A stretch of 35,213 bases of DNA from Nodularia spumigena CCY9414. GTDB taxonomy: Bacteria; Cyanobacteriota; Cyanobacteriia; Cyanobacteriales; Nostocaceae. The position numbers were made by a program, and so were the translations under genes. Below, one piece after another: positions 8,101 to 35,213 of this stretch (positions within the stretch are counted from its first letter, which is position 1; each line of letters starts with the position of its first letter). The stretch is taken from the NCBI RefSeq assembly GCF_000340565.2, contig NZ_CP007203.1, positions 2,062,288 through 2,097,500 on the forward strand, given 5' to 3'. Below the pieces are notes generated by a model that saw only the letters and a program-made list of their open reading frames with translations, searched no databases and had not been told where the DNA came from.

Positions 8101-8410
8101 ATTCGAGATAATTAGTTAAAATTAAGTTATAACCAATGTTTGATTCTAGATAACGTTTGAGTTGTTCTGTTTTTTCGGTTTTAGCTAAATCAACATTAAT
8201 ATCTTTAGCTTCTATATATCCTAAAACTCGATCATTTTTTCTGATAGTGAAATCAGGAATACCTTCTTGATTACCTTTTTCTTCAATTCTGGCATTAATT
8301 CCAATCATTAAACCTTCAATCAGTCGTTGTAAACTGGGGTAATGACTGCGTTCTCCACCGCGTTTAATATTGGTTTGTAGGTCTTGGATATAGTTGATAA
8401 ATTCAGTCAT
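5165..8410 (-). CDS. Nuclease-methyltransferase fusion, type ISP/IIG-like restriction-modification enzyme
   Basis: 1081 aa. N-terminal PD-(D/E)xK nuclease: P52-D53 in GIPDFTI and E67-x-K69 in YIEAKD. Middle: N6-adenine methyltransferase with SAM motif I D358-PATGTGTF and catalytic motif IV N480-PPY. C-terminus: the target-recognition domain of the type ISP class, including FFSNRGRPSVFPLYIYP and the PRLPLTSNQKLFDSLAEKGEKLVNLHL block near 960-990. True type ISP enzymes (LlaGI, LlaBIII) also carry a superfamily-2 helicase/translocase between nuclease and methylase; no Walker motifs or DExx box are visible here, and the length is well below theirs. The domain set is therefore closer to type IIG, with self-contained cutting and methylation by one chain. 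No frameshift seen. AT-rich and low in HIP1 sites compared with neighbours, which fits horizontal acquisition. Leads a probable two-gene transcript with the Uma2 gene. Confidence 0.85.
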   Translation of the reverse strand: MTEFINYIQDLQTNIKRGGERSHYPSLQRLIEGLMIGINARIEEKGNQEGIPDFTIRKNDRVLGYIEAKDINVDLAKTEKTEQLKRYLESNIGYNLILTNYLEFHWYVDGECEKIAKLADLEQGEIILVDDLQPIAELLQLFIDQKAKDINNYYDLAKEMAAYTKTIRNAIFSTLNIEANTEELNKLKETFKQILILDIDNQSFADMYAQTIAYGLFTARIGHAQNPGQFTFNRTTASIYISDRIPFLKGLFDIVIATDSVSKIHKSIENLVELLNTVDMTNILETFGQETRTEDPVIHFYETFLAAYEAKLRKSRGVYYTPEPVVNFIVRAVNDILVNEEIFDLQHGLGNRKVTILDPATGTGTFLYAVIKQIRDNVSKYGIDKWNTFLRDAKLINRLFGFELLMTPYTIAHLKLGLLLGDLGYKFAPEERLKVYLTNALEEGIKQGDLIPGITQIIAEESSQAGKVKTEVPVMVVLGNPPYSVSSQNASKRKRILNQDERYLADVEYTGSAWNKKYKTGKAGKTITELTHIGELLELYKGRVRLEKEKNIQPLDDDYIKFIRFAQYQIQKTPKGYGIIGFITNHSYLNGLIHRGMREELLKYFDTLYIMDLHGNSLLKETTPEGNVDQNVFDIQQGVAILIAVREKSEPDYFSTAYKSRDGVKEMAKVWYYDLWGSREDKYRFLESANLNNVDWIELQPTAPNYFFTAINYSLDTEKEYKNYWNIQDIFLVYSNVIETGKDDVLVDFEKNQLQEFIKKLADPKISDKDIADIYKIGDSSNWNFFKSRLLIIKDGMQDHLIKRIYYRPFDIRFTYFHSILRRMQEKVLTNLIQDNLGLLAMRQVASGDNQYTHFMVCNHIVDNRSFFSNRGRPSVFPLYIYPNTGNQQTNLFIEKTSNLSPKFLETIKHKLGKTPTPEAIFYYAYAIFHSPNYRSRYAEFLKIDFPRLPLTSNQKLFDSLAEKGEKLVNLHLMKSTTLNNLITTFANEGNNQVSEVTYNSELQRVYINKQSYFTDITQHIWEFKIGGYQVLDKWLKDRKNANRVLSDDEIIHYQKIVVALTETLRLMQEIDNLIPDFPIK

Positions 8411-17136: not shown

Positions 17137-17170
17137 ATAGTTTTGCTCAATTATACTCAGTTTCGGGAAA

Positions 17171-17210
17171 CCCCACCCCTAACCCCTCCGGTGCAAGCGA
17201 GGAGGGGAAA
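17171..17210. repeat. Dispersed 40-bp repeat, copy 2
   Basis: Identical over 40 bases to 1071-1110, with the same CCCCTCC/GGAGGGG hairpin. Lies just upstream of the phytase-like gene. Confidence 0.7.
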
Positions 17211-18020: not shown

Positions 18021-19286
18021 TTAATAAATGGGCAAAATTAACCGCACGGCGCGATCGCCTAATAAATAGGTATAAAGCCAAGTGAGTAAAACTAGCAAGC
18101 GACTACGATATCCAGGTAAATATACCAGATGAACGCCTAACCAAATTACCCAAGGTAAGAAGCCTGTAAATGCAAAGTTACCAATTTTTCCTACCCCAGA
18201 ATAACAGCCAATAATTGCTAATCTACCTTTATTAAAATAACTAAAGGGTTTTGGTGATTTACCCCGCAGCTGTTGTTGAATATTGCGGGCGACTGTTACA
18301 CCTTGCTGAAGTGCGACTGGCGCAACCCCAGCTAATGGTTTACCATTTTGCTCTATATAAGCTAAATCCCCAATAGCATAGACGTTGGGTTGTTCTAGTA
18401 GTTGTAAGGTGGGATGAACCGATAATTTTCCTTTTTTGGCTGTGGATATTTCCTCTGGTGTTTCGGGAGAGTTGGCTTCTAACCCCGCAGTCCAAATTAC
18501 TGTTGCGGTGGGAATTATTTCGTTGTTTTGCAGGTGTACAGATTCTTTGGTGACTTGACTAACTCTGGTTTGCAGGTAAACTTCTACACCTAATTGAGTT
18601 AATCTCTTGTAAGTATAGACTCCCAGTTTTTTGGGTAGTTCGGCTAAGAGGCGATCGCCTGACTGAATTACAATTAATCTCAGTTGCTGTAAATCTAATG
18701 TGGGATAATCCCGGCGAAATTTACCGCGTAGCATTTCTATCAAAGCACCGGCGATTTCTACCCCAGTCGCACCACCACCGACAATGGTAAATGTTAGCAG
18801 TTGTTGGCGTATCTCTGGATCAGATTCCTGGCTAGCGAGTTCCAAACAAGCCAGAATCCGGTGGCGTAATTTAATAGCTTCTGCTAAAGTTCTCAGAGAA
18901 AAGGCATATTCTGACGCGCCAGTTACACCTAAATACTGAGTTTTGCTTCCAGTTGCTAGTACGAGAAAATCATAGGCGATCGCACAACGATCTGTCTTGA
19001 CAATCTGGGCTTTAAAATCAATGCGCTGTACCTCCGCCCATAAAAACCGAGTTTTGGGCTTGTGCTGGTGTCGTTTCCCAGAAAATCGCCGGATAATCGT
19101 GCGAATAGGGTAAGCAATATATTCTGGTTCTAGTTGACTTGTGGCGACCTGATACAGTAGTGGTACAAAAGTATGATAGTTATGGCGATCGATTAAACAG
19201 ACATCTGCTCCAGAATTAGCTAAAGATTGAGCAGTTTGCAATCCACCAAATCCAGCGCCAACTATGACAATGCGGGGAGTTTGCAA
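18021..19286 (-). CDS. Type II NAD(P)H dehydrogenase (NDH-2)
   Basis: 421 aa flavoprotein that passes electrons from NAD(P)H to membrane quinone without pumping protons. FAD-binding GAGFGG at 10-15 followed by the acidic strand end LIDRHNYHTFVPLLYQVAT; NAD(P)-binding GGGATG at 170-175 within FTIVGGGATGVEIAGAL; second FAD motif VYAIGDLA near 305; the C-terminal amphipathic/hydrophobic region (HLVYLPGYRSRLLVLLTWLYTYLLGDRAVRLILP) is the usual membrane-binding part. Cyanobacteria have several (ndbA-C) and the subtype cannot be set by eye. First gene of an operon with the DoxX gene. Confidence 0.93.
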   Translation of the reverse strand: MQTPRIVIVGAGFGGLQTAQSLANSGADVCLIDRHNYHTFVPLLYQVATSQLEPEYIAYPIRTIIRRFSGKRHQHKPKTRFLWAEVQRIDFKAQIVKTDRCAIAYDFLVLATGSKTQYLGVTGASEYAFSLRTLAEAIKLRHRILACLELASQESDPEIRQQLLTFTIVGGGATGVEIAGALIEMLRGKFRRDYPTLDLQQLRLIVIQSGDRLLAELPKKLGVYTYKRLTQLGVEVYLQTRVSQVTKESVHLQNNEIIPTATVIWTAGLEANSPETPEEISTAKKGKLSVHPTLQLLEQPNVYAIGDLAYIEQNGKPLAGVAPVALQQGVTVARNIQQQLRGKSPKPFSYFNKGRLAIIGCYSGVGKIGNFAFTGFLPWVIWLGVHLVYLPGYRSRLLVLLTWLYTYLLGDRAVRLILPIY

Positions 19287-19360
19287 CTTTCCTCTCCTAA
19301 TTTAGCTAGTTGGTTAAGTTTATATAAACTATATTAATTTTTATCTCAAGATAAAAAATA

Positions 19361-20779
19361 TTACAATCTACTATAGGTAGAAAAGTTGCCCGACGATACA
19401 ATTTTCACTTCTAGCGTAAAAATACTACCTTTTCCCACCTGACTTTCAACTTTCAGATGCGCTTGATGTTTTTGGGCGATCGCCACAGCTATAGCTAACC
19501 CCAGCCCTGTGCTTACGGTTTTACAAGAGCGTAGGCGCAGCCCGCCGTAGGCATCGCTATCAACACGGTAAAAGCGATCAAAAATTCGCTTCTGATCAGC
19601 AAGCTCAATCCCAACTCCCGTATCTTTTACTGCAATTAGAGCAGTGTAATCACTCTTGACTAAGTTAACAGTTACATATCCCCCACTGGGTGTATACTGG
19701 ATGGCATTGGCAATCAAATTTGACACTAAACGGTAAAGTTGCGATTCATTACCTAAAGTGTAAACCTCGCAAGTGGGAATTTGGCAGGTTAAATTAATAT
19801 CAGCAGCAGTAGCCATCTCTAAAAATTCTTCGGTCAAATCGCTCACCACATCATTTAAGCAACAGGGCTGAAAAGGTTTTGCACCTGAATTTTGCTCCAG
19901 ACTGGTTAACAAGAGTAAGTCAGCGATTAAATGGCTCAATCGTCGTCCTTGTCGCTCAACAGTATGAAGCATGATTTGTATATCTTGTTGATTGGATTGC
20001 GGTATGCGGAGGATAGCTTCCACAGTCGCCAACAAACTAGCCAGAGGCGATCGCAATTCATGGGCAGCATTTGCAGTAAACTGTTGCTGTTGCTGATAGG
20101 ACTGGTAAATTGGCTGCATTGCTAAACCTGAAAGCCACCAACTGGAAGTAGCAACTAAGCTCAGAGCAATAGGCAACCCAATCGCCATAATCCATTGAAT
20201 CCGCCTGATTTCTGCATCAAAATGTTCTAAAGTGCGGCCAATTTGCAAATAGCCCCAGGATGAATCAGCATTGGCTTCATTAGTTAAAGGATGGGTATTA
20301 GCACTATGCAAAATTGTAGTGAATTGGTGATAGCGAATGCCCTTAGCCGTGCGAAAAGTTTGCCATGAACTGCGGTTGAGAGTTGGCGGCAGAGATAGCG
20401 GTTGATTGGGTGAAAAAGCCAGGAGTTTCCCTTGATGATTAAACAGACGAATATAATATGTAGTGCGATCGCTAATGCCGATAGTGTGCCGTTGAATCAG
20501 CGTTGGGGTAGCCTTGCAGGGTTGTCCACTCAAACAAAGATCAGGAAAAATTTGTTGCAACACCGCAGTCGGTTCTTCAGAAGGCGGTAACAGTGGTTCA
20601 ACGCTATCGTGTAAAGTTCCAGCAATTGATTCAATTTCGCGCTCCATTCCTGCCCACTTTGTTTGTACCATTGCGCGATACATCCCCAAACCAGAAACAC
20701 TCAAAATCACACCCATAACTCCCGCATACCAGAGGGCTAACCGTAGACGACTGCGCCGAAAAAGAGAGTAGCTATTCAT
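19361..20779 (-). CDS. rppB: Sensor histidine kinase, RppB/NrsS type
   Basis: 472 aa from the ATG at 20779; that ATG overlaps the rppA stop by 8 bp (ATGAATAG), the arrangement expected for translational coupling. A longer frame reaches 20836 but would overlap rppA further. Layout: first transmembrane segment about 14-37, external sensor domain about 40-190 with a C-x5-C pair (C82, C88) that could bind metal or sense redox, second transmembrane segment about 196-220, HisKA with H240 in NAAHELRSPLASL, N-box NLIANAIQYTPSGG, G1 KDTGVGIE, and a GLGLAIAVAIAQKH G2 box. In Synechocystis RppB/NrsS pairs have been linked to redox control of photosynthesis genes and to nickel sensing for an efflux operon. 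The pump 4 kb away makes a metal signal attractive here, but that is inference. Confidence 0.88.
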   Translation of the reverse strand: MNSYSLFRRSRLRLALWYAGVMGVILSVSGLGMYRAMVQTKWAGMEREIESIAGTLHDSVEPLLPPSEEPTAVLQQIFPDLCLSGQPCKATPTLIQRHTIGISDRTTYYIRLFNHQGKLLAFSPNQPLSLPPTLNRSSWQTFRTAKGIRYHQFTTILHSANTHPLTNEANADSSWGYLQIGRTLEHFDAEIRRIQWIMAIGLPIALSLVATSSWWLSGLAMQPIYQSYQQQQQFTANAAHELRSPLASLLATVEAILRIPQSNQQDIQIMLHTVERQGRRLSHLIADLLLLTSLEQNSGAKPFQPCCLNDVVSDLTEEFLEMATAADINLTCQIPTCEVYTLGNESQLYRLVSNLIANAIQYTPSGGYVTVNLVKSDYTALIAVKDTGVGIELADQKRIFDRFYRVDSDAYGGLRLRSCKTVSTGLGLAIAVAIAQKHQAHLKVESQVGKGSIFTLEVKIVSSGNFSTYSRL

Positions 20780-21467
20780 GAGAATTAAAGCGATAGCCAG
20801 CACCAGGAACAGTTTCAATCGGGCAGGGACAGCCATAATTTGCTAACTTGCGACGTAGTAAGCGCATTTGTGCCGCAACTACATTACTAATCGGCTCTTC
20901 GTCCATGTCCCAAAGTTGTTGACGCAATTTGCTACCGGGAATGATGCGATTGGGGTTCTGCATCAAATACATGAGCAACTGAAATTCTTTGGTAGTTAAG
21001 GGAATAACTAAGGGCGTAGATCCATCGGAATTTACTTGAAGGACATTATTTGCTGTATCCAGAGTAAAACCTGCAACAGTTAGGGTGGACGGTTGTAGTT
21101 GAGGCGATCGCCTCTGAAGGGCGCGCAACCGTGCCAGCAATTCTTCCATCACAAACGGTTTGACTAAATAATCATCCGCGCCCGCATCCAGCCCTGCGAC
21201 ACGATTTTCAGGCTGCCCCAAAGCAGTCAGCATCAGCACTGGTAAGGGATTTTGGTGTAGTCTGAGCTTCTGACATAACTGTAATCCCGACATTTCCGGC
21301 AGTAGCCAATCAACAATAGCAACTGTGTAGTCTGTCCACTGGCTTTCAATACAGAGCCATGCTTCAGTGCCATCTGTTACCCAATCCACCACATATCGTT
21401 CGCTAATTAGGACTTGCTTGATTGCCAGTCCCAAATCCGCTTCATCTTCCACCAGTAAAATTCGCAT
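20772..21467 (-). CDS. rppA: OmpR-family response regulator, RppA/NrsR type
   Basis: 231 aa. Receiver domain 1-115 with acidic pocket E7/D8, phospho-acceptor D53, T81 and K103 (VKPF). Winged-helix DNA-binding domain about 125-229, with LTTKEFQLLMYLMQNPNRIIP and the final ETVPGAGYRF hairpin. The RALQRRSPQLQP linker and the NVVAAQMRLLRRKL helix are typical of RppA/NrsR. It is followed by rppB with an 8-bp overlap. Its start codon lies only 34 bp behind the vapC stop codon, and those 34 bp plus its first ten codons are repeated next to the efflux operon at 25524-25590. It thus appears to have lost its own promoter region and may now be read from the vapBC promoter. Confidence 0.92.
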   Translation of the reverse strand: MRILLVEDEADLGLAIKQVLISERYVVDWVTDGTEAWLCIESQWTDYTVAIVDWLLPEMSGLQLCQKLRLHQNPLPVLMLTALGQPENRVAGLDAGADDYLVKPFVMEELLARLRALQRRSPQLQPSTLTVAGFTLDTANNVLQVNSDGSTPLVIPLTTKEFQLLMYLMQNPNRIIPGSKLRQQLWDMDEEPISNVVAAQMRLLRRKLANYGCPCPIETVPGAGYRFNSHE

Positions 21468-21501
21468 TGTTCCAGGAAATCAACCACGAGCTTGATTTTA
21501 C

Positions 21502-21897
21502 TCACCACGCTACTGCTTGTAGACTCTCCACTTCTTGAAAATGAGCATCGCGTGTTACTAGAATCAGAGCGTGTTGCAGTGCAAGAGATGCAATCCAGAT
21601 ATCGTTCTCAGGTAACGGACGACCCTTGAGCCTTAACTTGTTTTTGACCTCACCGTATTGCCGTGCGGTTTGAGCGTCACATCCCAATATCGTGCTGCTA
21701 ACAACTAGTTCATCAACTCTTGCCAAATTTGCTTCAACTCGCCCTGACTTTTTGGCTCCATAACACAACTCACCAATCACAAAACTTGGAATGAAAACTT
21801 CGTTGGCTTGAGCAAGATTGCTTTTGACGATCGCTTCATCTGCAAAAAGAGCAATGATGATGTTGGTATCGAGCAAATACCTACCACTCATCGACAT
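21502..21897 (-). CDS. vapC: VapC-type PIN-domain toxin
   Basis: 131 aa, typical PIN size; a probable RNase. The acidic residues expected in the active site are present: D10 (YLLDTN), E43 (IGELCYG), D99 (PENDIWIA) and D117 (TRDAHF). The start overlaps the end of the antitoxin gene by 17 bp; an internal ATG six bases in (MSGRYLLD) is equally possible. Target RNA unknown. Its 3' end coincides with the boundary of the duplicated rppA leader, so it is probably the outermost gene of an inserted cassette. Confidence 0.9.
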   Translation of the reverse strand: MSMSGRYLLDTNIIIALFADEAIVKSNLAQANEVFIPSFVIGELCYGAKKSGRVEANLARVDELVVSSTILGCDAQTARQYGEVKNKLRLKGRPLPENDIWIASLALQHALILVTRDAHFQEVESLQAVAW

Positions 21898-22108
21898 CTA
21901 CCCGTTCACAATCCTGCTCGATCGCCTCACGCATTACATGGAGATCGTCCGGAGGGATTGAACCTGCAAAACGTAGCAATTGCTGCCCTGGAGTTCCTCG
22001 AACTTCAGCTTTTACTAACGCTTGAGTAAATTCAAGCACTCGTTGTTGCAAGTGCTGCGGCATTATTTCTAGCCGTTTGATCACTTCATTGATAATGGAA
22101 ACACTCAT
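21881..22108 (-). CDS. vapB: VapB-type antitoxin (DUF2281-like)
   Basis: 75 aa, directly upstream of and overlapping vapC. The N-terminal part (INEVIKRLEIMPQHLQQRVLEFTQAL) matches the DUF2281-type antitoxin helix pair, and the acidic C-terminus (MREAIEQDCERVDVDEW) is the usual toxin-neutralising tail seen in cyanobacterial pairs. GAGGAGA lies just before the ATG as a good ribosome-binding site. Likely autoregulated with VapC, as is known for such pairs. Confidence 0.85.
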   Translation of the reverse strand: MSVSIINEVIKRLEIMPQHLQQRVLEFTQALVKAEVRGTPGQQLLRFAGSIPPDDLHVMREAIEQDCERVDVDEW

Positions 22109-22260
22109 TCTCTCCTCCTTTTCTTAAGGTCGTAGATAATCGCTGCGCCAACTCCATCAAAATCTCTCGCCCGTCCGCTTCATCGACTTGTTAGCTGGCT
22201 GGTAACACCTTTACTCAAAATCAAGGGCGTAGCGCATAAGGCTTTCAAGAAGTGTGAACA

Positions 22261-24573
22261 TTAATCATCGTCACTGTATGTCTGAAGTATAGACTGACAA
22301 TGTTCCAAATATCCACGATACTTAAATGTATTGGGATCATTGTCACCCAACATATCCAAATAGATTTGCTCGGCTTCTTGATAGAAAGGTCTTGCTTCAT
22401 TGTTTCTATTATTTGAACGATAGAGGTCTCCGAGGCTTTTCAAAGTCTTAGCAAGATGTTGAGGTTCTGCTGAGCGACATCTTTGCTCTTCTAATATTTT
22501 CAAAAGCAAGGGTTCTGCTTTTTTATAACCTTTCTTATAGCCTTTTTTTCGATCTTGGTAGAGTTGGACAAGATCAAGCATAGCTGGAATCAGCTTACGA
22601 TCCTCTTCAGGTAAATCATTTTGTAAATCTAGTGCTGTACGGTAAAAAGATTCTGCTTCTGCGAAACTTTCTTGTTCTTCCGCACGTTTTCCCCGAAGTC
22701 GGTATATTTGTGCCAGCTTGTGAATAGTCTTGATTACATATCGATTTTCGTCTCCCCACAAGCTCTTTTGTACTTTTAAGATTTCGCCTAAAATTGCTTC
22801 AGCATCGTCAAGTCGCCCTTGATTGCAATAAACATCTGCTAAACTTCTCTTGATTTCAGTGATAGGAGGATCTTCTTCTCTAAAGAAATTTCTTTGCAAT
22901 TCTAAAGCTTGTAGGTGCTGTTGTTCTGCTTCTTCCAAGTTTCCTTGAAGACGATATACAATTCCTAACTTATCCATGCTTCGAGCAATATCAGGATGCT
23001 CTCTACCTAAAAAATGCTCTTGTATCACTAAGGCTCTCTGCAATAAAAATTCTCCTTCGTCAAACCTTCCTTGAACACGATAAAGTGCTGCTAAGTTGAT
23101 AAAACTATGTACAATTTGAAGATTTTCTTCCCCTAACAAGTGTTTTCGTAAATCTAATCCTTTTAATAATAGGGGTTCTGCCTCTTCCAACTTTCCTTGA
23201 AGACGGTAGACCAAGCCCAGAAGATCAAAGCTCTCTGCAACATCAGAATGTTCTTCTCCGAAAATTTTTTGCCGTAACTCTAGAACTTCTTTCAGTATCG
23301 ATTCCGCTTCTATATATTGTCCTTGAAATAGATAGGATACTCCTAGTTCAACTAAGCAGGTAGCAAATGAGGGATGTGTTTTTCCTAAACGTTTCTGTAG
23401 TAAATCCACACTTTTCTCATGACAAGATTGATATAACTTATAAAAACCCTGAACGCGATAAAATTGACCCAACATCGAAAAAGACTGACTCAGGTCTTCA
23501 TCCTTGATTGCATCAGTCAGATTCTGTACTAATTCTTCTAAGTGAGGAATAGCATCCTTAACTGAATCAAAACTTTCACGGGTGAATATTCCAGGTTCAG
23601 TAGCGTATGTTCTCGGCACTGTTTTGGCGATTTCTACAAGAGCTGTGGCAAAGGCTTGCCTAAATTGATTTGAGTGTTCTGCCTCTTCCAGTTTCGCCTG
23701 TAAAAAACCTCTAATTAAGGGATGTATTTTATACAGAGGTTCTCCCTCTAACAATTGCTCAATTAAATGATGTTCGTAAAGTTGCTCGTTTGCAGTTTCA
23801 ATATCTAACTCTTGCCAATTTAGTGATTTACAGGCATACTCCACAAGTTCCCACGGAATACTAGTTGGTACAAATAAGCTCAAAAACTCGCCCATACGCT
23901 GTGATGTTGGTTTGAGTTCTTTCCAGCTTAATTCAAATACAGCTTTCACTCCTTGCAAAGGGATATCAACAGTTAACTGCGGCTGGTTAAGAAGTTCTCG
24001 CTGTTCCTCCAGTCGTTGCAACATTTTATCTAGTGACAAAAGAGGTTTTTTCCTTAAATATCGCCCTACCAACTGCAAACCCAAAGGTAGATAGCCTAGC
24101 CTCTTACACAATTCTTGTGCTTGCTGTTTTTCTTTTTGTACTCGTGTGTCACCGACCAACTTTGTTAAAAGATTCAACGCATCTTCTGGCGACAATACAT
24201 CCAAAGGTATTTCTTCGATATCGGGATCGAGATTTCGCAATCGTGTTGTTATTAACACCCGAAAACGTTTTACTTTTGGCAGTAATTGATAAAAGCTTTC
24301 TAAATTGACAACATCATCTAATACAACCAATACTAAACCTTCCGGCGGTTGCCAATTGTGCCAACACCACCACACTTGTTCTTCTAGTGGCTTTCCCTTT
24401 AATTCTTCAGGTATTTCTAATTTCAGAAATTGCTTAAACTGGTTGATAATCTCAGTCGCTAAGTTCCCTTCTCGTGCATTTAACCAGCAAATTCCACCGA
24501 GATAATCATCTTGATGTTGCCGTGCATATTGTGTCGCCAACTCTGTTTTACCCACACCACCCATGCCTGCCAC
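22261..24573 (-). CDS. STAND NTPase (NB-ARC) with kinesin-light-chain-like TPR repeats; true 5' end disputed
   Basis: From the first usable start, a GTG at 24573, 770 aa; but the frame stays open to 24726, right behind the in-frame TGA that ends the upstream 137-aa ORF. The GTG start is doubtful because it sits two codons before the P-loop (GMGGVGKT, 3-10), whereas the 51 codons before it encode the conserved NFVGRIDELAKIHEKL lead-in of this family and offer no ATG, GTG or TTG. Seen after the P-loop: Walker B VLVVLDD (81-87), sensor-1 LITTR (107-111), GxP-type LGYLPLGLQLVG (159-170), a winged-helix region to about 300, then about eight 42-residue TPRs (370-750) of the HP...A...LG.VYR.QG..EEAE type. 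Repeated KKGY residues near 680 show a small expansion. Proteins of this build act as signal sensors and often in anti-phage abortive systems; which applies here is unknown. Confidence 0.82.
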   Translation of the reverse strand: MAGMGGVGKTELATQYARQHQDDYLGGICWLNAREGNLATEIINQFKQFLKLEIPEELKGKPLEEQVWWCWHNWQPPEGLVLVVLDDVVNLESFYQLLPKVKRFRVLITTRLRNLDPDIEEIPLDVLSPEDALNLLTKLVGDTRVQKEKQQAQELCKRLGYLPLGLQLVGRYLRKKPLLSLDKMLQRLEEQRELLNQPQLTVDIPLQGVKAVFELSWKELKPTSQRMGEFLSLFVPTSIPWELVEYACKSLNWQELDIETANEQLYEHHLIEQLLEGEPLYKIHPLIRGFLQAKLEEAEHSNQFRQAFATALVEIAKTVPRTYATEPGIFTRESFDSVKDAIPHLEELVQNLTDAIKDEDLSQSFSMLGQFYRVQGFYKLYQSCHEKSVDLLQKRLGKTHPSFATCLVELGVSYLFQGQYIEAESILKEVLELRQKIFGEEHSDVAESFDLLGLVYRLQGKLEEAEPLLLKGLDLRKHLLGEENLQIVHSFINLAALYRVQGRFDEGEFLLQRALVIQEHFLGREHPDIARSMDKLGIVYRLQGNLEEAEQQHLQALELQRNFFREEDPPITEIKRSLADVYCNQGRLDDAEAILGEILKVQKSLWGDENRYVIKTIHKLAQIYRLRGKRAEEQESFAEAESFYRTALDLQNDLPEEDRKLIPAMLDLVQLYQDRKKGYKKGYKKAEPLLLKILEEQRCRSAEPQHLAKTLKSLGDLYRSNNRNNEARPFYQEAEQIYLDMLGDNDPNTFKYRGYLEHCQSILQTYSDDD

Positions 24574-24726
24574 AGCAGCAGAGATCGCTACGGAACGGGA
24601 TGTGTGTAATTTTTCGTGAATTTTGGCAAGTTCATCTATGCGTCCAACAAAGTTGGCGGAACCTTGATAAGGAATAATATATTTAGAGGGATTTAACTTT
24701 ATCCGTTCCCGTTCGGACGACTGTAG

Positions 24727-25140
24727 TCAAAACTGAAATGTATTTCCTGTTACTGTATTAATTCCACCTTTAATATTGATTCCTTTCCAGTTTTCAATTA
24801 CTGTCGAAAGTTGAGGATTAGCTCTATTCAATTCTCGCTCGACGATTTCCGCCACTTTCGGTTCTGATAGCACTAACTCTTTAGTTTCCTCAAGCAGTTT
24901 TTTTATATCTTCGTTATCTTTTGCAATTGCCTCAATTTCTAAATACACTGTGCCGTAATCTAGGGGGTATTGGTCTGAACCTTCTATAAGAAGTGCGGCA
25001 GTAGGGGAGTCCTGCTTGATTCGAGATAGCAACTCATTCGACTTAAAAAATACAGCATGAGTCACATTCTCTCCAACCTTAGTTAATGCTCCTGTTGCTA
25101 CGATACCTGCAAGTGCGATCAGAATAGTCAGAGGATCCAT
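24727..25140 (-). CDS. N-terminal part of the STAND protein, ended by in-frame UGA
   Basis: 137 aa. The first 25 residues include a hydrophobic stretch (LTILIALAGIVATGAL) that could insert in a membrane; then a helical, charged region (YLEIEAIAKDNEDIKKLLEETKEL) and an Asn/Gly-rich end (GINIKGGINTVTGNTFQF) of the type that links N-terminal effector-like regions to NB-ARC or other modules in cyanobacterial multidomain proteins. The stop is TGA followed by CTA, and the next codons continue in the same frame into the NB-ARC ORF without a start. Together the two would make one protein of 959 residues. Either a recent nonsense mutation or a leaky stop explains this. On its own it has no recognised activity. 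Confidence 0.7.
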   Translation of the reverse strand: MDPLTILIALAGIVATGALTKVGENVTHAVFFKSNELLSRIKQDSPTAALLIEGSDQYPLDYGTVYLEIEAIAKDNEDIKKLLEETKELVLSEPKVAEIVERELNRANPQLSTVIENWKGINIKGGINTVTGNTFQF

Positions 25141-25259
25141 TGATTGCTTCCTTAATAATAATTCGGTTTACAGTTTACCAAAAGACCAAAGGGCTTAAAC
25201 GCACCTAATCTAACCAACTCGAACCGCAAGTGCAAAAACTTGATGCGAAGCCGGCTAAC

Positions 25260-25407
25260 TATTTTGCTACCCATTTATTACAAAACGGCTACGACATCCC
25301 TACAGTGCAGCAATTACTGGGACACAAGGATGTAAAAACCACGATGATTTATTTATACCCATGTTCGGAATCGGGGTGGTAAGGCTGTGCGTAGCCCCCT
25401 TGATTAG
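25260..25407 (+). pseudogene. Remnant of an IntI-like tyrosine recombinase (C-terminus)
   Basis: Reads [19 protein letters not shown], then [13 protein letters not shown], which is the last part of integron-integrase-like tyrosine recombinases, with the LLGHxxxxTT box and the nucleophile Tyr of MIYTHV. A 4-bp tandem duplication (TTAT at 25349-25352 and 25353-25356) shifts the frame; after it, the other frame gives [16 protein letters not shown] and a stop, the standard C-terminus of this family. Upstream, the HxxRH box is gone (KPANYFATH instead), so only about the final 50 residues survive. Dead, but it shows that a site-specific recombinase once lay at this junction. Confidence 0.85.
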
Positions 25408-25471
25408 AATTACTGGCATATATTTTACATGAATTTTGAACACCTAAAATGGTACAAAGTTAACACCCTAG

Positions 25472-25521
25472 CTCATAGCCATAACACCACACAGCAGGCA
25501 AGTGGATTGCCGATGGGTATT
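25472..25521 (+). pseudogene. Fragment of the efflux adaptor gene
   Basis: Encodes HSHNTTQQASGLPMGIL, matching the HSHD...TTQQASGGLPMGIL part of the adaptor protein encoded at 25683-26348, with an internal deletion. It joins directly, without a spacer, to the inverted rppA fragment that follows. A 75-codon open frame across this junction (25429-25656) is chimeric and not a real gene. Confidence 0.85.
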
Positions 25522-25523
25522 CT

Positions 25524-25552
25524 GCTTCATCTTCCACCAGTAAAATTCGCAT
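25524..25552 (-). pseudogene. First ten codons of a second rppA copy
   Basis: 29 bases identical to 21439-21467, the start of rppA (MRILLVEDEA). The leader just upstream of the ATG (25553-25590) is also related to the leader of the intact gene (21468-21501), with several substitutions and small gaps. The remnant is oriented away from the efflux operon, the divergent layout known for nrsRS and nrsBACD in Synechocystis. Confidence 0.88.
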
Positions 25553-25594
25553 CACTTCAGGGAAATCAACCACAAAGCTCTGATCTTACAAAAA

Positions 25595-25624
25595 CATCTG
25601 CCATTTCACCTGGATTTCATCTGC
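25595..25624. promoter_or_regulatory. Candidate OmpR-type operator: three CAYCTG repeats
   Basis: CATCTG at 25595, CACCTG at 25607 and CATCTG at 25618, spaced 12 and 11 bp, about one helix turn. The last two form tandem 11-mers ATTTCACCTGG and ATTTCATCTGC. Direct repeats at 11-bp period are the binding mode of OmpR/PhoB-type regulators. They lie about 60-90 bp before the efflux start codon and upstream of the rppA remnant, where a shared divergent operator would be expected. The binding protein is inferred, not shown. Confidence 0.55.
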
Positions 25625-25682
25625 CCTTTGGCAAACTATGGACAACTTTTGTTTAATCCCGTATCCATTGTGAGGAGTGATT

Positions 25683-26348
25683 ATGAAACCTTTTATGCTA
25701 ATGAGTTCCATTCTGGCAGCCAGTTTAATTATCAGTGCGCCCACAGTTGTATCTGCTCACGTTGGGCATGGTGATGAATTTCAAGCAACGGGTGGCATTA
25801 ATCGCGTCAAAGTCAATGCTCAAACCGATGAACTATTAGGTATTGTGGTGACACCGATCGCCTCCTCTGGGGGATCTGCTGTGATGATTCCGGTGACGGC
25901 ATTGGTTGATGCTGATGGCAAGCAGCTAGTCTTTGTGCAGTATGAGAATTTTTATGAGCCAGTGGAAGTTACCACCGGTGAGACTAAAGGCGAACTAATC
26001 GCTATTACCAAAGGATTGTCAGTTGGTGAAAAACTTGTTACCCAAGGTAGTTTGTCGCTATATGCCGAATCGCGTAAAACCCAAACCGCCGATACAGCAC
26101 CAAGTCCAGATGCGATCGCCACTCCTAAAACTGATACAGCCCATGCTCAGGCAGATGCTCAAGGAATACCTCATAGCCATGATGCAAGCGGTAATCTCGT
26201 CTCACAGGCTGGTGAAACAACTCAGCAAGCAAGTGGTGGATTGCCGATGGGTATTTTAGCAGGAGTCGGTGGTGGAGTTGTGCTTGTGGGCGGAGCGATC
26301 GCTGTTGTTGTAGGTATGGGTAAAAAGAAAAGCGACTTATCTGAATAA
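25683..26348 (+). CDS. Short periplasmic adaptor-like protein of an RND metal efflux system
   Basis: 221 aa from the ATG at 25683, which has GAGGAG five bases upstream; a GTG at 25677 overlaps that site and is less likely. Signal peptide MKPFMLMSSILAASLIISAP...VSA, His-rich mature start HVGHGDE. Residues about 35-130 (VMIPVTALVDADGKQLVFVQ, TKGLSVGEKLVTQGSLSLYAESRK) match the C-terminal membrane-proximal part of CzcB-type adaptors. The lipoyl and alpha-hairpin domains are missing, so it is about half the usual length. A second His-containing stretch (GIPHSHDASG) and a C-terminal transmembrane segment with KKK tail follow. It may anchor next to the pump and bind metal rather than build the whole tunnel. 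The RND gene begins 21 bp downstream in the same operon. Confidence 0.8.
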   Translation: MKPFMLMSSILAASLIISAPTVVSAHVGHGDEFQATGGINRVKVNAQTDELLGIVVTPIASSGGSAVMIPVTALVDADGKQLVFVQYENFYEPVEVTTGETKGELIAITKGLSVGEKLVTQGSLSLYAESRKTQTADTAPSPDAIATPKTDTAHAQADAQGIPHSHDASGNLVSQAGETTQQASGGLPMGILAGVGGGVVLVGGAIAVVVGMGKKKSDLSE

Positions 26349-26369
26349 GACAGGAGATTTTTAATTGCA

Positions 26370-29300
26370 ATGTTGAACTCCATTCTGAATCAGATTCTCA
26401 AAAACTCCATTGCCCAGCGTTGGTTTATAGTTATCTGTGCGATTCTAGTGACGGTGTGGGGAGTGTTCACTGTCACACAGATGCCACTGGACGTTTTTCC
26501 TGAATTTGCACCCCCCCAGGTGGATATTCACACCGAAGCGACTGGACTAGCTCCAGAGGAAGTGGAATCACAAATTACTGTGCCGATTGAGAGTGCGGTG
26601 AATGGTTTGCCGGGGGTAACTACGGTACGATCTTCCTCTAAAGTCGGGCTGTCTATGGTGCAGGTGGTGTTTGACCAGGAAGCCGACATTTATAAAGCTC
26701 GGCAATCAGTGACAGAACGACTCCAGCAGGTGACAAATCAGTTACCTGAAGGGGTGCATCCGCCGGAAATTTCGCCGTTAGCATCGCCATTAGGCACAAT
26801 TTTACAGTATGCCTTTACTGTGAATGGGCAAGGGAAAACCTCGCTGATGGATTTGCGCCGTCTGGTGGATAGCACCCTGAGCAACCAAATTTTATCTGTG
26901 CCGGGAGTCACCCAAGTTACTGTTTACGGTGGGGATGAACGACAAGAACAAGTATTAGTTGATCCAGAAAAATTGCGATCGCTTAATGTTTCCCTGACCG
27001 AAGTGACTAATGCTGCTAAAAGCGCAAATTCTAACGCTCCTGGTGGATTTCTCATTGGTGGTGGTCAAGAACTTTTAGTACGCGGTATTGGGCAGGTAAA
27101 ATCAATTGCAGACTTGCAGCAATCAGTGGTCAAGGTGCAAGATGGGAAACCGATTTTGCTCAAAGATGTGGCGGAAGTAAAAACGGGTGCAGCACTGAAG
27201 CGGGGAGACGCTAGTTTTAATGGGCAGCCGGCTGTGGTGATGATGATTAACAAACAGCCTGATGTCGATACTCCGACGGTGACAAAAGCAGTAGAAGCGA
27301 TGCTGCAATCGTTGCAGGACACATTTCCCCCTGATGTGCAGATGGCGCGGACGTTCCGGCAGTCTAACTTTATTGATACTGCCATTGCCAATGTCAGCAG
27401 TTCCCTAATTCAAGGCATCATCATCGTGTCGGTGATTATGCTGTTATTTCTGATGAATTGGCGTACTGCCGTAATTACTCTGAGTGCAATTCCTCTGTCT
27501 CTGTTGATTGGCTTAATGTTCATGAAAGCTTTTGGCTTGGGCATTAACACCATGACCTTGGGCGGTTTAGTCGTAGCCATTGGTTCAGTTGTGGATGACT
27601 CAATCGTGGACATGGAGAACTGCTATCGGGGACTGCGAACCAATCAGGCACAGGGCAACCCGAAGCATCCCTTTGAGGTGGTGTATGAAACCTCTGTACA
27701 GGTGCGGTTAGCCGTGATTTTTTCCACAGTGATTATCGTAGTCGTTTTTGCACCAATTTTTAGTTTGACGGGCGTTGAAGGCAACATTTTTGCACCGATG
27801 GGTTTTGCATATTTGCTTTCCATCTGCGCGTCTACTTTGGTGGCCATGACCCTTTCACCTGCCTTGTGTACCATTCTGCTGGCAAATCAAACCCTACCGC
27901 AAGAAGGTACATTTATCTCACGTTGGGCAGAACGGTTATATAGTCCATTGTTAAATCTGTCGCTGCGATCGCCCCAAATTATTCTGGGTGTAGCACTTGC
28001 CGCCTTGGTTGCTGCTTTTGCGATTATTCCCTCCCTGGGACGGGTGTTTTTGCCGGAATTTCAGGAGAAATCATTGGTTAATTCAATGGTTTTATTTCCA
28101 GGAGTTTCCCTCGATATGACCAATCGGGCTGGGATAGCACTGTCTAGTGCGCTTAAAGATAATCCTTTGTATGAGTGGGTGCAAGTACGGGCAGGACGCA
28201 CTCCAGGAGATGCAGATGGGGCGGGAGTGAGTATGGCTCATGTGGATGTAGAATTGAGCGATCGCGCCCTCGAAGACCGGGAAGCCAGTATTAAACAATT
28301 GCGGCAAGAGTTTAATAAACTGCCTGGTGTAGCATCTAACATTGGTGGATTTATTTCTCACCGTATGGATGAAGTGTTATCTGGGGTGAGAAGTGCGATC
28401 GCTGTGAAAATCTTTGGCCCGGATTTAACAGAACTGCGAAAGATTGGCGAACAAGTGCGAGATGTGATTCAGCCCATTGCTGGGGTTGTAGACTTGCAGC
28501 TTGAACCCCAACTGCCCATTCGTCAGGTACAAATTCATTATGATCGCGCAGCTGCTGCAACCTATGGATTGAGTATGGAGCAGTTGTCAAATGTGGTGGA
28601 AACTGCTTTAAATGGTCGTGTAGTGTCGCAAGTGGCTGAAAATCAGCAGCTTATTGATATTTCTATCTCCTTGACGGAGAAAGCCCGCAATAGTTTAGAT
28701 GCCATTCGCGCTATTCCCATCACTACCCCTACTGGGCAAACTATCCAATTGGGTGTGGTTGCTAAAGTAGAGTACGGTATGGGAGCAAATGTTGTAAATC
28801 GGGAAGATGTGTCACGGCTAATTGTTGTTTCGGCAAATGTGGCCGAGCGCGATTTGGGCAGTGTCGTTGGCGATATTCAATCCCAAATTCAACAGAAAAT
28901 CAAACTCCCCAATGGCTATTTCATCCAATACGGTGGACAGTTTGAATCGGAGCAGCGTGCTAGTAATAATCTCCTGGTATTTAGTATCTTGGCAGCGATC
29001 GCCATTGCGGTGTTGATGTTCTTCTCTGTTAAATCCCTCCCCGCGACAATCGCCATCATGCTCAATCTGCCTTTGGCTTTGGTGGGTGGTATTATCTCCA
29101 TTGCTTTGAGTGGCGGTGTGATGTCGATCGCCTCTTTGATTGGATTCATTACCCTATTTGGTGTTGCTGTCCGCAATGGTTTGTTGTTGGTAGACAACTA
29201 TAACAATAAGTTTGCTCAGGGAATGCCTCTTAAAGATGTGATTGTTAAAGGTTCTCTAGAGCGAGTTAATGCTATCCTGATGACCGCACTCACTTCTGCG

Positions 29301-29489
29301 CTGGGGATGCTGCCTTTGGCGATCGCCAGTGGCGCTGGAAATGAAATTCTGCAACCCTTAGCAATTGTAGTTTTGGGTGGTTTATTTACTTCTACAGCTT
29401 TGACTTTATTGGTTATTCCGGCTCTTTACGCCAAATTTGGCAAACAATTGATGCCTCAACAGAAAAGCGTTTTGGTTAACCAAAAATAG
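26370..29489 (+). CDS. RND family heavy-metal efflux pump (CzcA/NrsA-like)
   Basis: 1039 aa, normal for HME-RND. Inner-membrane proton antiporter; substrates are taken from periplasm or cytoplasm. First transmembrane helix about 18-36, two large periplasmic loops (about 40-335 and 560-860) and the usual twelve-helix layout. The PLDVFPEFAPPQVDIHTEATGLAPEEVESQITVPIE start is characteristic of the metal group. In helix 4 the motif is VVAIGSVVDDSIVDMEN, with D409 and E416 equivalent to CzcA D408 and E415; the first acidic residue of the classic DFG signature is replaced, so Co/Zn/Cd specificity should not be assumed; Ni (NrsA) or monovalent metals are alternatives. No outer-membrane channel gene follows. 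Probably controlled from the operator candidate upstream, by RppA or a relative. Confidence 0.92.
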   Translation: MLNSILNQILKNSIAQRWFIVICAILVTVWGVFTVTQMPLDVFPEFAPPQVDIHTEATGLAPEEVESQITVPIESAVNGLPGVTTVRSSSKVGLSMVQVVFDQEADIYKARQSVTERLQQVTNQLPEGVHPPEISPLASPLGTILQYAFTVNGQGKTSLMDLRRLVDSTLSNQILSVPGVTQVTVYGGDERQEQVLVDPEKLRSLNVSLTEVTNAAKSANSNAPGGFLIGGGQELLVRGIGQVKSIADLQQSVVKVQDGKPILLKDVAEVKTGAALKRGDASFNGQPAVVMMINKQPDVDTPTVTKAVEAMLQSLQDTFPPDVQMARTFRQSNFIDTAIANVSSSLIQGIIIVSVIMLLFLMNWRTAVITLSAIPLSLLIGLMFMKAFGLGINTMTLGGLVVAIGSVVDDSIVDMENCYRGLRTNQAQGNPKHPFEVVYETSVQVRLAVIFSTVIIVVVFAPIFSLTGVEGNIFAPMGFAYLLSICASTLVAMTLSPALCTILLANQTLPQEGTFISRWAERLYSPLLNLSLRSPQIILGVALAALVAAFAIIPSLGRVFLPEFQEKSLVNSMVLFPGVSLDMTNRAGIALSSALKDNPLYEWVQVRAGRTPGDADGAGVSMAHVDVELSDRALEDREASIKQLRQEFNKLPGVASNIGGFISHRMDEVLSGVRSAIAVKIFGPDLTELRKIGEQVRDVIQPIAGVVDLQLEPQLPIRQVQIHYDRAAAATYGLSMEQLSNVVETALNGRVVSQVAENQQLIDISISLTEKARNSLDAIRAIPITTPTGQTIQLGVVAKVEYGMGANVVNREDVSRLIVVSANVAERDLGSVVGDIQSQIQQKIKLPNGYFIQYGGQFESEQRASNNLLVFSILAAIAIAVLMFFSVKSLPATIAIMLNLPLALVGGIISIALSGGVMSIASLIGFITLFGVAVRNGLLLVDNYNNKFAQGMPLKDVIVKGSLERVNAILMTALTSALGMLPLAIASGAGNEILQPLAIVVLGGLFTSTALTLLVIPALYAKFGKQLMPQQKSVLVNQK

Positions 29490-29553
29490 TCAAACTAATG
29501 ATGCTGTGATTGATGTAATAAGACTGTGTTTTAAAGGTGATAACCTTGAAAAA

Positions 29554-33005: not shown

Positions 33006-35213
33006 TCATGATGCCTCATAAAGTTGGATATTGCGGAACAGACCATTACTATCAGGTGAGGCTACATCATGGTCATTGGCAAAGGTGAGATAGTTGAAAT
33101 TGCCCGTGAAGTAATCTCCTACTTTAATACCATAAGATTGCCAACCAGAACCAGTGCTATAGTTTTTAAAGTCATCGAGTCCCCAATTTTGAGTTCCACT
33201 AAGTTGGAATAAGTTTTGGGGGTTATTGATGACATCATTGTCAGTATCAAAACCAATTCCGTGAATTTCTCCTCGTTTGCTGCTTTGGAATTCAAATTCC
33301 AGGATGGTGTTGTTGGTAATATTGTAATTACCAATGTCCAGTTTTTTCCAGGTGTTACCGGATAGTCCTAGTTGAGTTTTATCAGCCGAGATGGTGAATT
33401 CATCTGTGACATCTTGGGAGGCGGCGGAAAGAGCGTATTCGTTGCTATTACCGTTGATGTTGACGCTGAGGTTTTTATTCTCGTAGAGTTGGATATTGCG
33501 GAACTGACCATTACTATCAGGTGAGGCTACATCATGGTCATTGGCAAAGGTGAGGTAGTTGAAATTGCCCGTGAAGTAATCTCCTACTTTAATACCATAA
33601 GATTGCCAACCAGAACCAGTGCTATAGTTTTTAAAGTCATCGAGTCCCCAATTTTGAGTTCCACTGAGTTGGAATAAGTTTTGGGGGTTATTGATGACAT
33701 TATCGTCATTATCAAAACCAATACCGTGAATTTCTCCTCGTTTGCTGCTTTGGAATTCAAATTCCAGGATGGTGTTGTTGGTAATATTGTAGCCACCAAT
33801 GTCCAGTTTTTTCCAGGTGTTACCGGATAGTCCTAGTTGAGTTTTATCAGCAGAGATAGTGAATTCATCTGTGACATTTTGAGATGCGGCGGAAAGAGCG
33901 TATTCGTTGCTACTACCGTTGATATTGACGCTGATGGTCTTCTCATAAAGTTGGATATTGCGGAACTGACCATTACTATCAGGTGAGGCTACATCATGGT
34001 CATTGGCAAAGGTGAGGTAGTTGAAATTGCCCGTGAAGTAATCTCCTACGGTAATACTGTAAGATTGCCAACCAGAACCAGTGCTATAGTTTTTAAAGTT
34101 ATTTAGTCCCCAATTTTGAGTTCCACTAAGTTGGAATAAGTTTTGGGGGTTATTGAGTACATCATTGTCAGTATCAAAACCAATACCGTGAATTTCTCCT
34201 CGTTTGCTGCTTTGGAATTCAAATTCCAGGATGGTGTTGTTGGTAATATTGTAGCCACCAATGTCCAGTTTTTTCCAGGTGTTACCGGATAGTCCTAGTT
34301 GAGTTTTATCAGCCGAGATGGTGAATTCATCTGTGACATTTTGAGATGCGGCGGAAAGAGCGTATTCGTTGCTACTACCGTTGATATTGACGCTGAGGTT
34401 GTTATTCTGATTCTCGTAGAGTTGGATATTGCGGAACTGACCATTACTATCAGGTGAGGCTACATCATGGTCATTGGCAAAGGTGAGGTAGTTGAAATCT
34501 CCGGTGAAGTAATCTCCTACGGTAATACTGTAAGATTGCCAACCAGAACCAGTGCTATAGTTTTTAAAGTTATTCAGTCCCCAATTTTGAGTTCCACTAA
34601 GTTGGAATAAGTTTTGGGGGTTATTGATGACATCATTGTCAGTATCAAAACCAATACCGTGAATTTCTCCTCGTTTGCTGCTTTGGAATTCAAATTCCAG
34701 GATGGTGTTGTTGGTAATATTGTAGCCACCAATGTCGAGTTTTTTCCAGGTGTTACCGGATAGTCCTAGTTGAGTTTTATCAGCAGAGATGGTGAATTCA
34801 TCTGTGACATCTTGGGAGGCGGCGGAAAGAGCGTATTCGTTGCTACTACCGTTGATGTTGACGCTAACGTTTTGATTTTCATAGAGTTGGATATTGCGGA
34901 ACTGACCATTACTATCAGGTGAGGCTACATCATGGTCATTGGCAAAGGTGAGGTAGTTGAAATTGCCCGTGAAGTAATCTCCTACGGTAATACTGTAAGA
35001 TTGCCAACCAGAACCAGTGCTATAGTTTTTAAAGTTATTCAGTCCCCAATTTTGAGTTCCACTAAGTTGGAATAAGTTTCCAGGGTTATTGATGACATCA
35101 TTGTCAGTATCAAAACCAATTCCGTGAATTTCTCCTCGTTTGCTGCTTTGGAATTCAAATTCCAGGATGGTGTTGTTGGTAATATTGTAATTACCAATGT
35201 CCAGTTTTTCCAG
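33006..35213 (-). CDS. Large protein of ~155-residue secreted-type repeats, 5' part outside window
   Basis: Open on the minus strand from near the window end to a TGA at 33006-33008. Four complete repeats and part of a fifth; the same position recurs at 33023, 33488, 33950, 34421 and 34886, spacing 465, 462, 471 and 465 bp, all multiples of three. Each unit reads NEYALSAASQDVTDEFTIS, a GLSGNTWKKLDI strand, TNNTILEFEFQSSKRGEIHG, IGFDTDNDVINNPQNLFQLSG, TQNWGLNNFKNYSTGSGWQ, then FNYLTFANDHDVASPDSNGQFRNIQLYE. The all-beta pattern, rich in aromatic, Asn and Asp residues, resembles jelly-roll sugar- or calcium-binding modules, but the family is not firmly recognised. Linkers of 0-5 residues differ between units. 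No start or export signal lies in the window. DNA identity between units is very high. At 35205-35209 a T5 run replaces the T6 of the other four copies and would shift the frame. Confidence 0.75.
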   Translation of the reverse strand: MEKLDIGNYNITNNTILEFEFQSSKRGEIHGIGFDTDNDVINNPGNLFQLSGTQNWGLNNFKNYSTGSGWQSYSITVGDYFTGNFNYLTFANDHDVASPDSNGQFRNIQLYENQNVSVNINGSSNEYALSAASQDVTDEFTISADKTQLGLSGNTWKKLDIGGYNITNNTILEFEFQSSKRGEIHGIGFDTDNDVINNPQNLFQLSGTQNWGLNNFKNYSTGSGWQSYSITVGDYFTGDFNYLTFANDHDVASPDSNGQFRNIQLYENQNNNLSVNINGSSNEYALSAASQNVTDEFTISADKTQLGLSGNTWKKLDIGGYNITNNTILEFEFQSSKRGEIHGIGFDTDNDVLNNPQNLFQLSGTQNWGLNNFKNYSTGSGWQSYSITVGDYFTGNFNYLTFANDHDVASPDSNGQFRNIQLYEKTISVNINGSSNEYALSAASQNVTDEFTISADKTQLGLSGNTWKKLDIGGYNITNNTILEFEFQSSKRGEIHGIGFDNDDNVINNPQNLFQLSGTQNWGLDDFKNYSTGSGWQSYGIKVGDYFTGNFNYLTFANDHDVASPDSNGQFRNIQLYENKNLSVNINGNSNEYALSAASQDVTDEFTISADKTQLGLSGNTWKKLDIGNYNITNNTILEFEFQSSKRGEIHGIGFDTDNDVINNPQNLFQLSGTQNWGLDDFKNYSTGSGWQSYGIKVGDYFTGNFNYLTFANDHDVASPDSNGLFRNIQLYEAS
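33023..35213. repeat. Tandem ~465-bp DNA repeats, 4.7 copies
   Basis: Nearly identical units with boundaries at 33023, 33488, 33950, 34421 and 34886. Differences are scattered single bases plus in-frame length changes in the linker (for example an added run at about 34401-34415). The similarity at silent positions points to recent duplication or gene conversion. Confidence 0.92.

Follow-up and report, generated by a model that had tools for sequence, protein, structure and literature searches.

A regulator–efflux locus of Nodularia spumigena divided by integron-derived DNA, probably through a single crossover within a 29-base repeat

In Nodularia spumigena CCY9414, the first 29 coding bases of the response regulator gene rppA occur a second time about 4.1 kb away, beside an RND metal-efflux operon, with a toxin–antitoxin pair among the genes in between. 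How did the start of one gene come to stand on both sides of this DNA? The window considered here is the whole stretch of 35,213 nucleotides that was analysed, and the features of the locus are collected in Table 1. RppA and RppB face a CzcA-type RND operon, as in nrs/rpp loci, and this placing of an RppA/NrsR-kind two-component regulator opposite an RND metal-efflux operon resembles nrsRS–nrsBACD of Synechocystis PCC 6803, as described in the available part of PMC4284471. Compared with that description, the window has a split pair and a short MFP-like gene, and relatives alone possess an NrsD-like transporter (named by eye), within their inserts.

An earlier sequence-only reading of this DNA had pointed out that the start of rppA recurs exactly next to the pump and that the leaders beside the two copies are related. 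A repeat search and an alignment bear out both statements, the leaders adjoining copies A and B being related but not identical. In 40 simulated order-1 sequences of the window's length (35 kb), exact direct repeats reached 17 bp at most, so that a 29-bp repeat is not attributable to chance. At copy A, rppA starts 34 bases past the vapC stop codon, which directly adjoins the leader remnant, and the full leader stays with the pump. This pump-side leader contains a conserved direct repeat (25603-25623), a candidate RppA box judging from its conservation and the type of regulator.

Table 1. Features of the divided locus, in window coordinates
Feature	Position	Strand	Evidence or remark
rppB, sensor histidine kinase	19361..20836	-	NF041735 RppB equivalog 2.3e-200, over cut-off
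rppA, response regulator, complete	20772..21467	-	NF041734 RppA equivalog 7e-113, over cut-off
Repeat copy A (first 29 coding bases of rppA)	21439..21467		left flank resident-type, right flank unit-type
rppA leader remnant	21468..21501		34 bp kept; upstream part missing
vapC, PIN-domain toxin	21502..21897	-	PF01850 6e-21; NF047863 3.4e-23, below cut-off
vapB, presumed antitoxin	21881..22108	-	ORF; position and overlap with vapC
attC site	22122..22196	-	40.2 bits, E 1.1e-8, covariance model, filters off
STAND gene, main part (NB-ARC, TPR)	22261..24573	-	PF00931 4.7e-15, PF13424 4.5e-57
STAND gene, N-terminal part, same reading frame	24727..25140	-	sequence comparison
intI C-terminal remnant	25262..25406	+	TIGR02249 2.3e-12 over 25263-25358; DNA homology to intact intI
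Right terminal inverted repeat of transposon	25451..25470		sharp edges of dispersed copies; related tail 25407-25470
MFP', 3' fragment of MFP gene, 51 bp	25471..25521	+	Nodularia/RI552-type allele
rppA', first 31 bases of an rppA gene	25522..25552	-	contains repeat copy B, 25524-25552
Complete leader, divergent control region	25553..25676		retained on pump side
Short MFP-like gene (CzcB C-terminal type)	25677..26348	+	TIGR00999 3e-11, below cut-off
RND metal-efflux permease (CusA/CzcA family)	26370..29489	+	TIGR00914 9.6e-248, over cut-off

The insert between rppA and the pump, about 4.1 kb long, had been described as holding vapBC, a STAND gene and a recombinase remnant, and open reading frames and domain matches confirm this content. 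The 75-aa vapB frame has no match in Pfam or NCBIfam. An in-frame TGA (24727-24729) splits the STAND gene into open frames of 137 and 770 aa; no second close copy of this gene was among the matches listed for the genome, and in PADLOC it gave a TPR match only. DNA resembling vapBC occurs in 45 of 208 genomes.

The nature of the insert is indicated by the stretch upstream of vapB, which shares a 36-bp match with an intI-bearing locus and belongs to a dispersed element. Some part of a 96-bp stretch is matched in 44 of 208 Nostocaceae genomes (E 0.01), genomes G144 and G231 matching only its vapB side, and full copies of the element have attC architecture. A simple attC motif scan gave no clear excess (18 matches against 7-20 in 10 base shuffles), and a covariance model was therefore adopted, built from 13 aligned copies out of 15 pattern matches (L245 and L260 were excluded as aberrant). 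Its 16-pair fold contains six pairs with compensated changes, a number that neither 500 shuffles nor six slid versions reached, with the proviso that related rows can exceed shuffles. The site that the model reports in the window is about 11 bp shorter than the model and has the standard R''/L'' and L'/R' arms (consensus R'' RYYYAAC and R' GTTRRRY; PMC12901181), with R'' towards the STAND stop. Rfam gave nothing in 19000-29500 up to E 1. At E 0.001 this is the sole attC reported in the single-contig 5.46-Mb genome, and by our own arithmetic the odds that a genome's only attC falls by chance inside a 4.1-kb segment are about 1 in 1300; at least one attC was reported in 56 of 99 genomes (E 0.001, stricter filters, source genomes of the model counted in). 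Among 21 attC sites at nine loci, 16 are preceded by a same-direction open frame of at least 50 aa ending at most 150 nt before R'', compared with 6 of 21 in a mirror control. Cassette geometry is seen in the window as well: the STAND stop at 22261 is followed by R'' at 22196, and the intI remnant lies divergently (+) on the other side. Furthermore, attC follows vapC in genome G135 (22.7 bits), alone among eight vapBC loci scanned with the model, so that at least one relative has vapBC as an integron cassette; in G146 and G097 a first attC arm after vapC is visible by eye only. In the window vapBC has no attC of its own, and the rppA leader occupies the position where one would stand.

The intI remnant covers 32 of the 315 TIGR02249 positions and lacks the 5' side, and is no working integrase gene; a longer remnant is present in G004 (TIGR02249 3.7e-47). 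Position 25262, considered as an element edge, was rejected, being merely the point at which the window's intI breaks off. Genes scoring above the curated cut-off for intI were found in 8 of 145 genomes, two of them with internal stops. At four of the seven intI loci fetched (G079, G040, G019 and G111), attC lies on the 5' side of intI and in the opposite direction, as it does in the window; none was reported at the loci of G015, G113 and G006, the last of which has its 5' side cut by a contig end. The G015 locus (L226), with many short repeats and masked stretches, is unlike the other Nostocaceae intI loci and may be a foreign or contaminating contig. Judged by its attC and intI sequences, the insert is best described as integron-derived, the remnant of an integron. 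Cyanobacterial integrons and attC sites are already on record (PMC2426708, PMC8352920). The insert resembles the sedentary chromosomal integrons and CALIN-like orphan attC sites of these sources, as far as their available parts describe them, in its standard attC, its integrase remnant, its cassettes reading away from intI and its toxin–antitoxin cargo. It is unlike them in that intI is truncated and a single attC is left, and in that the remnant sits inside a metal-efflux locus with a copy of a host gene start on each side.

Uninterrupted counterparts of the locus were sought with a 311-bp probe from Anabaena UHCC 0204 that spans its rppA start and leader. It matched 44 of 217 Nostocaceae genomes, 16 of them strongly (with best matches of 232 bits or more, against less than 100 in all others). 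An uninterrupted order of rppBA, leader, MFP and RND genes is found in five of these 16 (L178, which is the probe's genome, L179, L180, L181 and L182), G121 has a 192-bp insert, and the other ten are rearranged (the window, G004, G006, G105, G106, G120, G138, G148, G177 and G214). Tolypothrix (L025) and Nostoc UCD121 (L083) were mapped but stand outside this count; in the latter, a truncated rppA is fused to the middle of the MFP gene, with a deletion across the leader. Uninterrupted leaders run ...TTAC directly into AAAAAC, and the empty site had been predicted to join the equivalents of 21501 and 25591, correctly to about one base. A wider collection yielded 76 loci found through RppA, 46 of them with a divergent RND gene in the stretch examined, and the distance from rppA to the start of the MFP match in these 46 is 109-140 bp in 30, 241-739 bp in seven and more than 800 bp in nine. 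The plasmid collection gave six records, none covering 80% of the locus.

In a tree of rppBA (15 rows), the window groups with Anabaena UHCC 0204, Dolichospermum UHCC 0259 and CAINGU (clade 99/99; the inner fork is weak, at 81/66, with the bootstrap unsettled), and in a tree of the RND gene (15 rows) it forms a clade of three with UHCC 0204 and UHCC 0259 (100/100). G004 and CCCryo were left out of the former and G004, G105 and Tolypothrix out of the latter, as their matches either were too short or fell on different copies. Since the nearest relatives common to both trees, UHCC 0204 and UHCC 0259, are uninterrupted, it follows that a resident pair was split. The proposal that a cassette broke a regulator–pump pair is supported to this extent, by the shared uninterrupted relatives and by the five intact loci. 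The same trees bear on the idea that the interrupted locus was acquired whole by horizontal transfer, the crossover having occurred in another lineage. Such a transfer would suit the 90-94% nucleotide identity of the locus across several genera, as well as the lack of a close match in the three other congeners searched, G004 apart, but both halves of the window have the same nearest relatives, which are themselves uninterrupted, and we regard it as quite unlikely.

At the pump-side end of the insert, MFP' is joined directly to the rppA' fragment, and its allele is unlike that of the resident MFP gene. The same MFP'|rppA' joint occurs in G004 (twice) and in G105. In two genomes, G231 and G144, a unit of MFP' (14 bases kept), an rppA fragment, a 35-base leader and vapC–vapB stands past a DnaJ-TPR gene; this is the unit as observed, and its observed parts do not include the STAND gene or intI. 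The G231 unit agrees with the window at 96.3% over 724 bp, and vapC is truncated in G144. No rppBA or pump DNA was found around these units in the 16-kb stretches compared with the window, and, although that genus has the DnaJ gene in 13 genomes, the other 11 of these have no such unit in the 330 bases after the match. When leader and vapBC were used together as a query, the window and G231 alone matched from the first base among the matches listed, others starting at position 29 or later. The sequence-only reading had named as adverse to itself the occurrence of vapBC and the STAND gene at this place with neither rppA nor a pump; the vapBC unit of G231 and G144 resembles such a finding but stands at another site. 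Two points go beyond that reading, namely that the insert is integron-derived and that the duplicate at its flank moves together with vapBC.

In G231 and G144, the leader|vapC and MFP'|rppA' joints are both carried by one rppA'–leader copy, whereas in the window they are spread over two copies (at 21501/21502 and 25521/25522). In the alignment, the left side of the 29-mer is resident-type at copy A and unit-type at copy B. On the right side the types are exchanged: copy A is unit-type, reading TTGTTCCAGGA-AATC where the unit has TTGCTCCAGGA-AATC, and copy B is resident-type, reading TCACTTCAGGGAAATC like UHCC 0204, UHCC 0259 and CAINGU. One crossover within the 29 identical bases would produce exactly this reciprocal exchange of flanks. 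The signal comprises few informative bases, and the unit-type leader is also found at a resident rppA in Tolypothrix.

The following history is suggested. A resident nrs-type locus, made up of rppBA, a divergent leader and an MFP–RND pump, would have been interrupted by about 4.1 kb of integron-derived DNA bringing in vapBC, the STAND gene with its attC, the truncated intI and the transposon end. The incoming DNA would also have carried an arm consisting of the MFP' fragment, 31 bases of rppA and 35 bases of leader, and because both MFP' and the unit leader resemble Nodularia/RI552 alleles, this arm appears to derive from another, Nodularia-like copy of such a locus. A single homologous crossover between the arm and the resident rppA start, inside the 29-mer, would then have achieved a Campbell-type insertion. 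The donor was presumably circular or tandem, a linear donor being possible too, and the direction was presumably integration and not excision. The likeness to Campbell-type integration lies in the direct repeats that flank the insert, the reciprocal junctions and the copy elsewhere that has both junctions; the case differs from the plain form in that the homology arm is a 66-bp regulator start plus leader travelling with a toxin–antitoxin cassette. As for expression, rppBA would have lost its own promoter side and would now be read from vapBC, with which, from the gene order, it is probably transcribed, and the pump would retain its metal-regulated promoter. The homologous regulator of Synechocystis governs both the pump and its own operon (PMC4284471), and by analogy the self-control of rppBA is probably lost in the window. 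A regulator shifted behind a toxin–antitoxin operon, with the pump left on its original promoter, is a testable consequence. The account as a whole, including the form of the donor and the effect on the promoters, seems to us probable, with appreciable room for doubt.

A local tandem duplication of rppA', leader and MFP, with transposon and integron DNA then entering the left MFP copy and most of this copy being deleted, would also be expected to leave an MFP 3' fragment joined to rppA'. G004, which holds this joint twice, speaks for it, as do CCCryo and G177, in each of which both repeat copies have lineage-specific bases in common, so that local duplication or gene conversion does occur at this locus too. 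These bases oppose one ancestral duplication for all genomes, favouring separate duplication or gene conversion. In the window such an origin is nonetheless unlikely, considering that the MFP' allele differs from the resident MFP gene, that the 29-mer has flanks of two types in reciprocal arrangement and that G231 and G144 carry both joints on one copy. The earlier suggestion of a duplicated unit largely deleted around the cassette was thus right insofar as part of a second efflux unit is present, but this fragment is no copy of the resident MFP gene.

Direct site-specific insertion at the rppA start by a transposase or a tyrosine recombinase, the repeat being a target duplication or attachment site, is very unlikely in our view. 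Both a transposon end and an integron-integrase remnant are at hand, and attC sites end at the rppA leader in Goleter, but the window's attC is at neither junction and the flank pattern is that of homologous exchange. In addition, the 160-bp MITE-like elements at L005, L014 and L007, both ends of which are like the window's transposon end, have target duplications of 9 bp (by eye), not of 29 or 66 bp. No left end pairing with the window's right end was found in the loci examined at up to four mismatches; at up to five, ten selected loci gave one possible end pair (L143, 725 bp). Of a complete transposon, which would have two inverted ends and a 9-bp duplication, the window holds the right end only. 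The reciprocal exchange of the two sides of the 29-mer also led us to discard the idea of a long target duplication or a phage-like attachment site.

Inserts between rppA and the pump also occur in other genomes, with varied cargo (gene names from translations). CCCryo and the Calothrix/N. carneum/G106 group have an NrsD-like MFS transporter, Goleter a RelE-like pair with methyltransferases, and G004 a GMC-type oxidoreductase; the G120 insert contains a hydrolase, vapB and a vapC piece, its vapB/vapC DNA being 98.9% identical to the window over 368 bp. Upstream of the inserted NrsD-like MFS gene at L183, L187, L188 and L189 stand GGGGGGTAT-type palindromes (by eye), which we take to be perhaps a CsoR/InrS-type operator. 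Goleter apudmare has three copies of the rppA start plus leader on two contigs (L100 and L101) in a presumed order, and a 200-bp segment to the left of two of these copies also lies beside different genes in G177, G120 and G004. In Goleter one attC (L101 278-364, 66.8 bits) has its end at the rppA leader, and GTTAAAC of the leader serves as the R' box of another (L100 10527-10612, 23.8 bits, E 0.0019-0.0044), which makes recombinase-driven entry likely there. A match at a boundary of this kind in Tolypothrix (18.4 bits, E 0.064) was disregarded as too weak. The insert starts within a few bases of the Goleter leader position in CCCryo, G177 and G121, and the model reported no attC at the insert start. 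The Goleter arrangement, once with a leader-supplied R' box, is akin to attG sites, through which integron cassettes enter genomes outside integrons (Loot et al. 2024, as cited in the available part of PMC12901181), while the window, which has no attC at a junction, differs from these in an entry that looks homologous.

Of 12 wide-gap loci checked outside Nostocales, L040 repeats the rppA start (42 bp, 95%) amid leader repeats. Leader repeats occur in L030 and L031 as well, a 29-bp leader match is present in L062, and the remaining loci have short or palindromic matches only, or none. In the seven loci where the gaps are largest, these are occupied by unrelated small genes, some of them toxin–antitoxin-like by eye. 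Within Nostocales, the findings mark the metal-efflux control region as a recurrent insertion site. It is conceivable, and put forward here tentatively, that the divergent rppA–efflux control region of heterocystous cyanobacteria acts as a standing landing platform for integron cassettes, either via GTT-type sites in the leader or via a homology arm of rppA start and leader, with accessory genes repeatedly put downstream of a metal-responsive promoter and with repeats that permit their swapping out.

An integron remnant, a toxin–antitoxin cassette, homologous integration and a metal-efflux locus are each of a known kind. What is new is that an arm of gene start plus leader moves with a cassette, that the crossover has been reconstructed and that this control region is a repeated target of insertion, and a search of open-access titles and abstract starts found no literature on integron cassettes at rppA or nrs loci. 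A short pair of repeats becomes a readable recombination scar here through its 29-base interval, its reciprocal flanks and the both-junction copy elsewhere, and this suggests that integron cargo may spread beyond the reach of its own integrase by taking along part of a host control region.

Elsewhere in the window, a DDE_Tnp_4-kind transposase is split over two overlapping reading frames (49-866), and a Type ISP restriction-modification enzyme is encoded at 5165-8410 (PF18135 3.6e-87; PADLOC type IIG match). An exact direct repeat of about 41 bp stands in intergenic DNA at 1070-1110 and 17170-17210, 16 kb apart, and long near-identical tandem repeats of about 465 bp each occupy 33041-35213, up to the window end.
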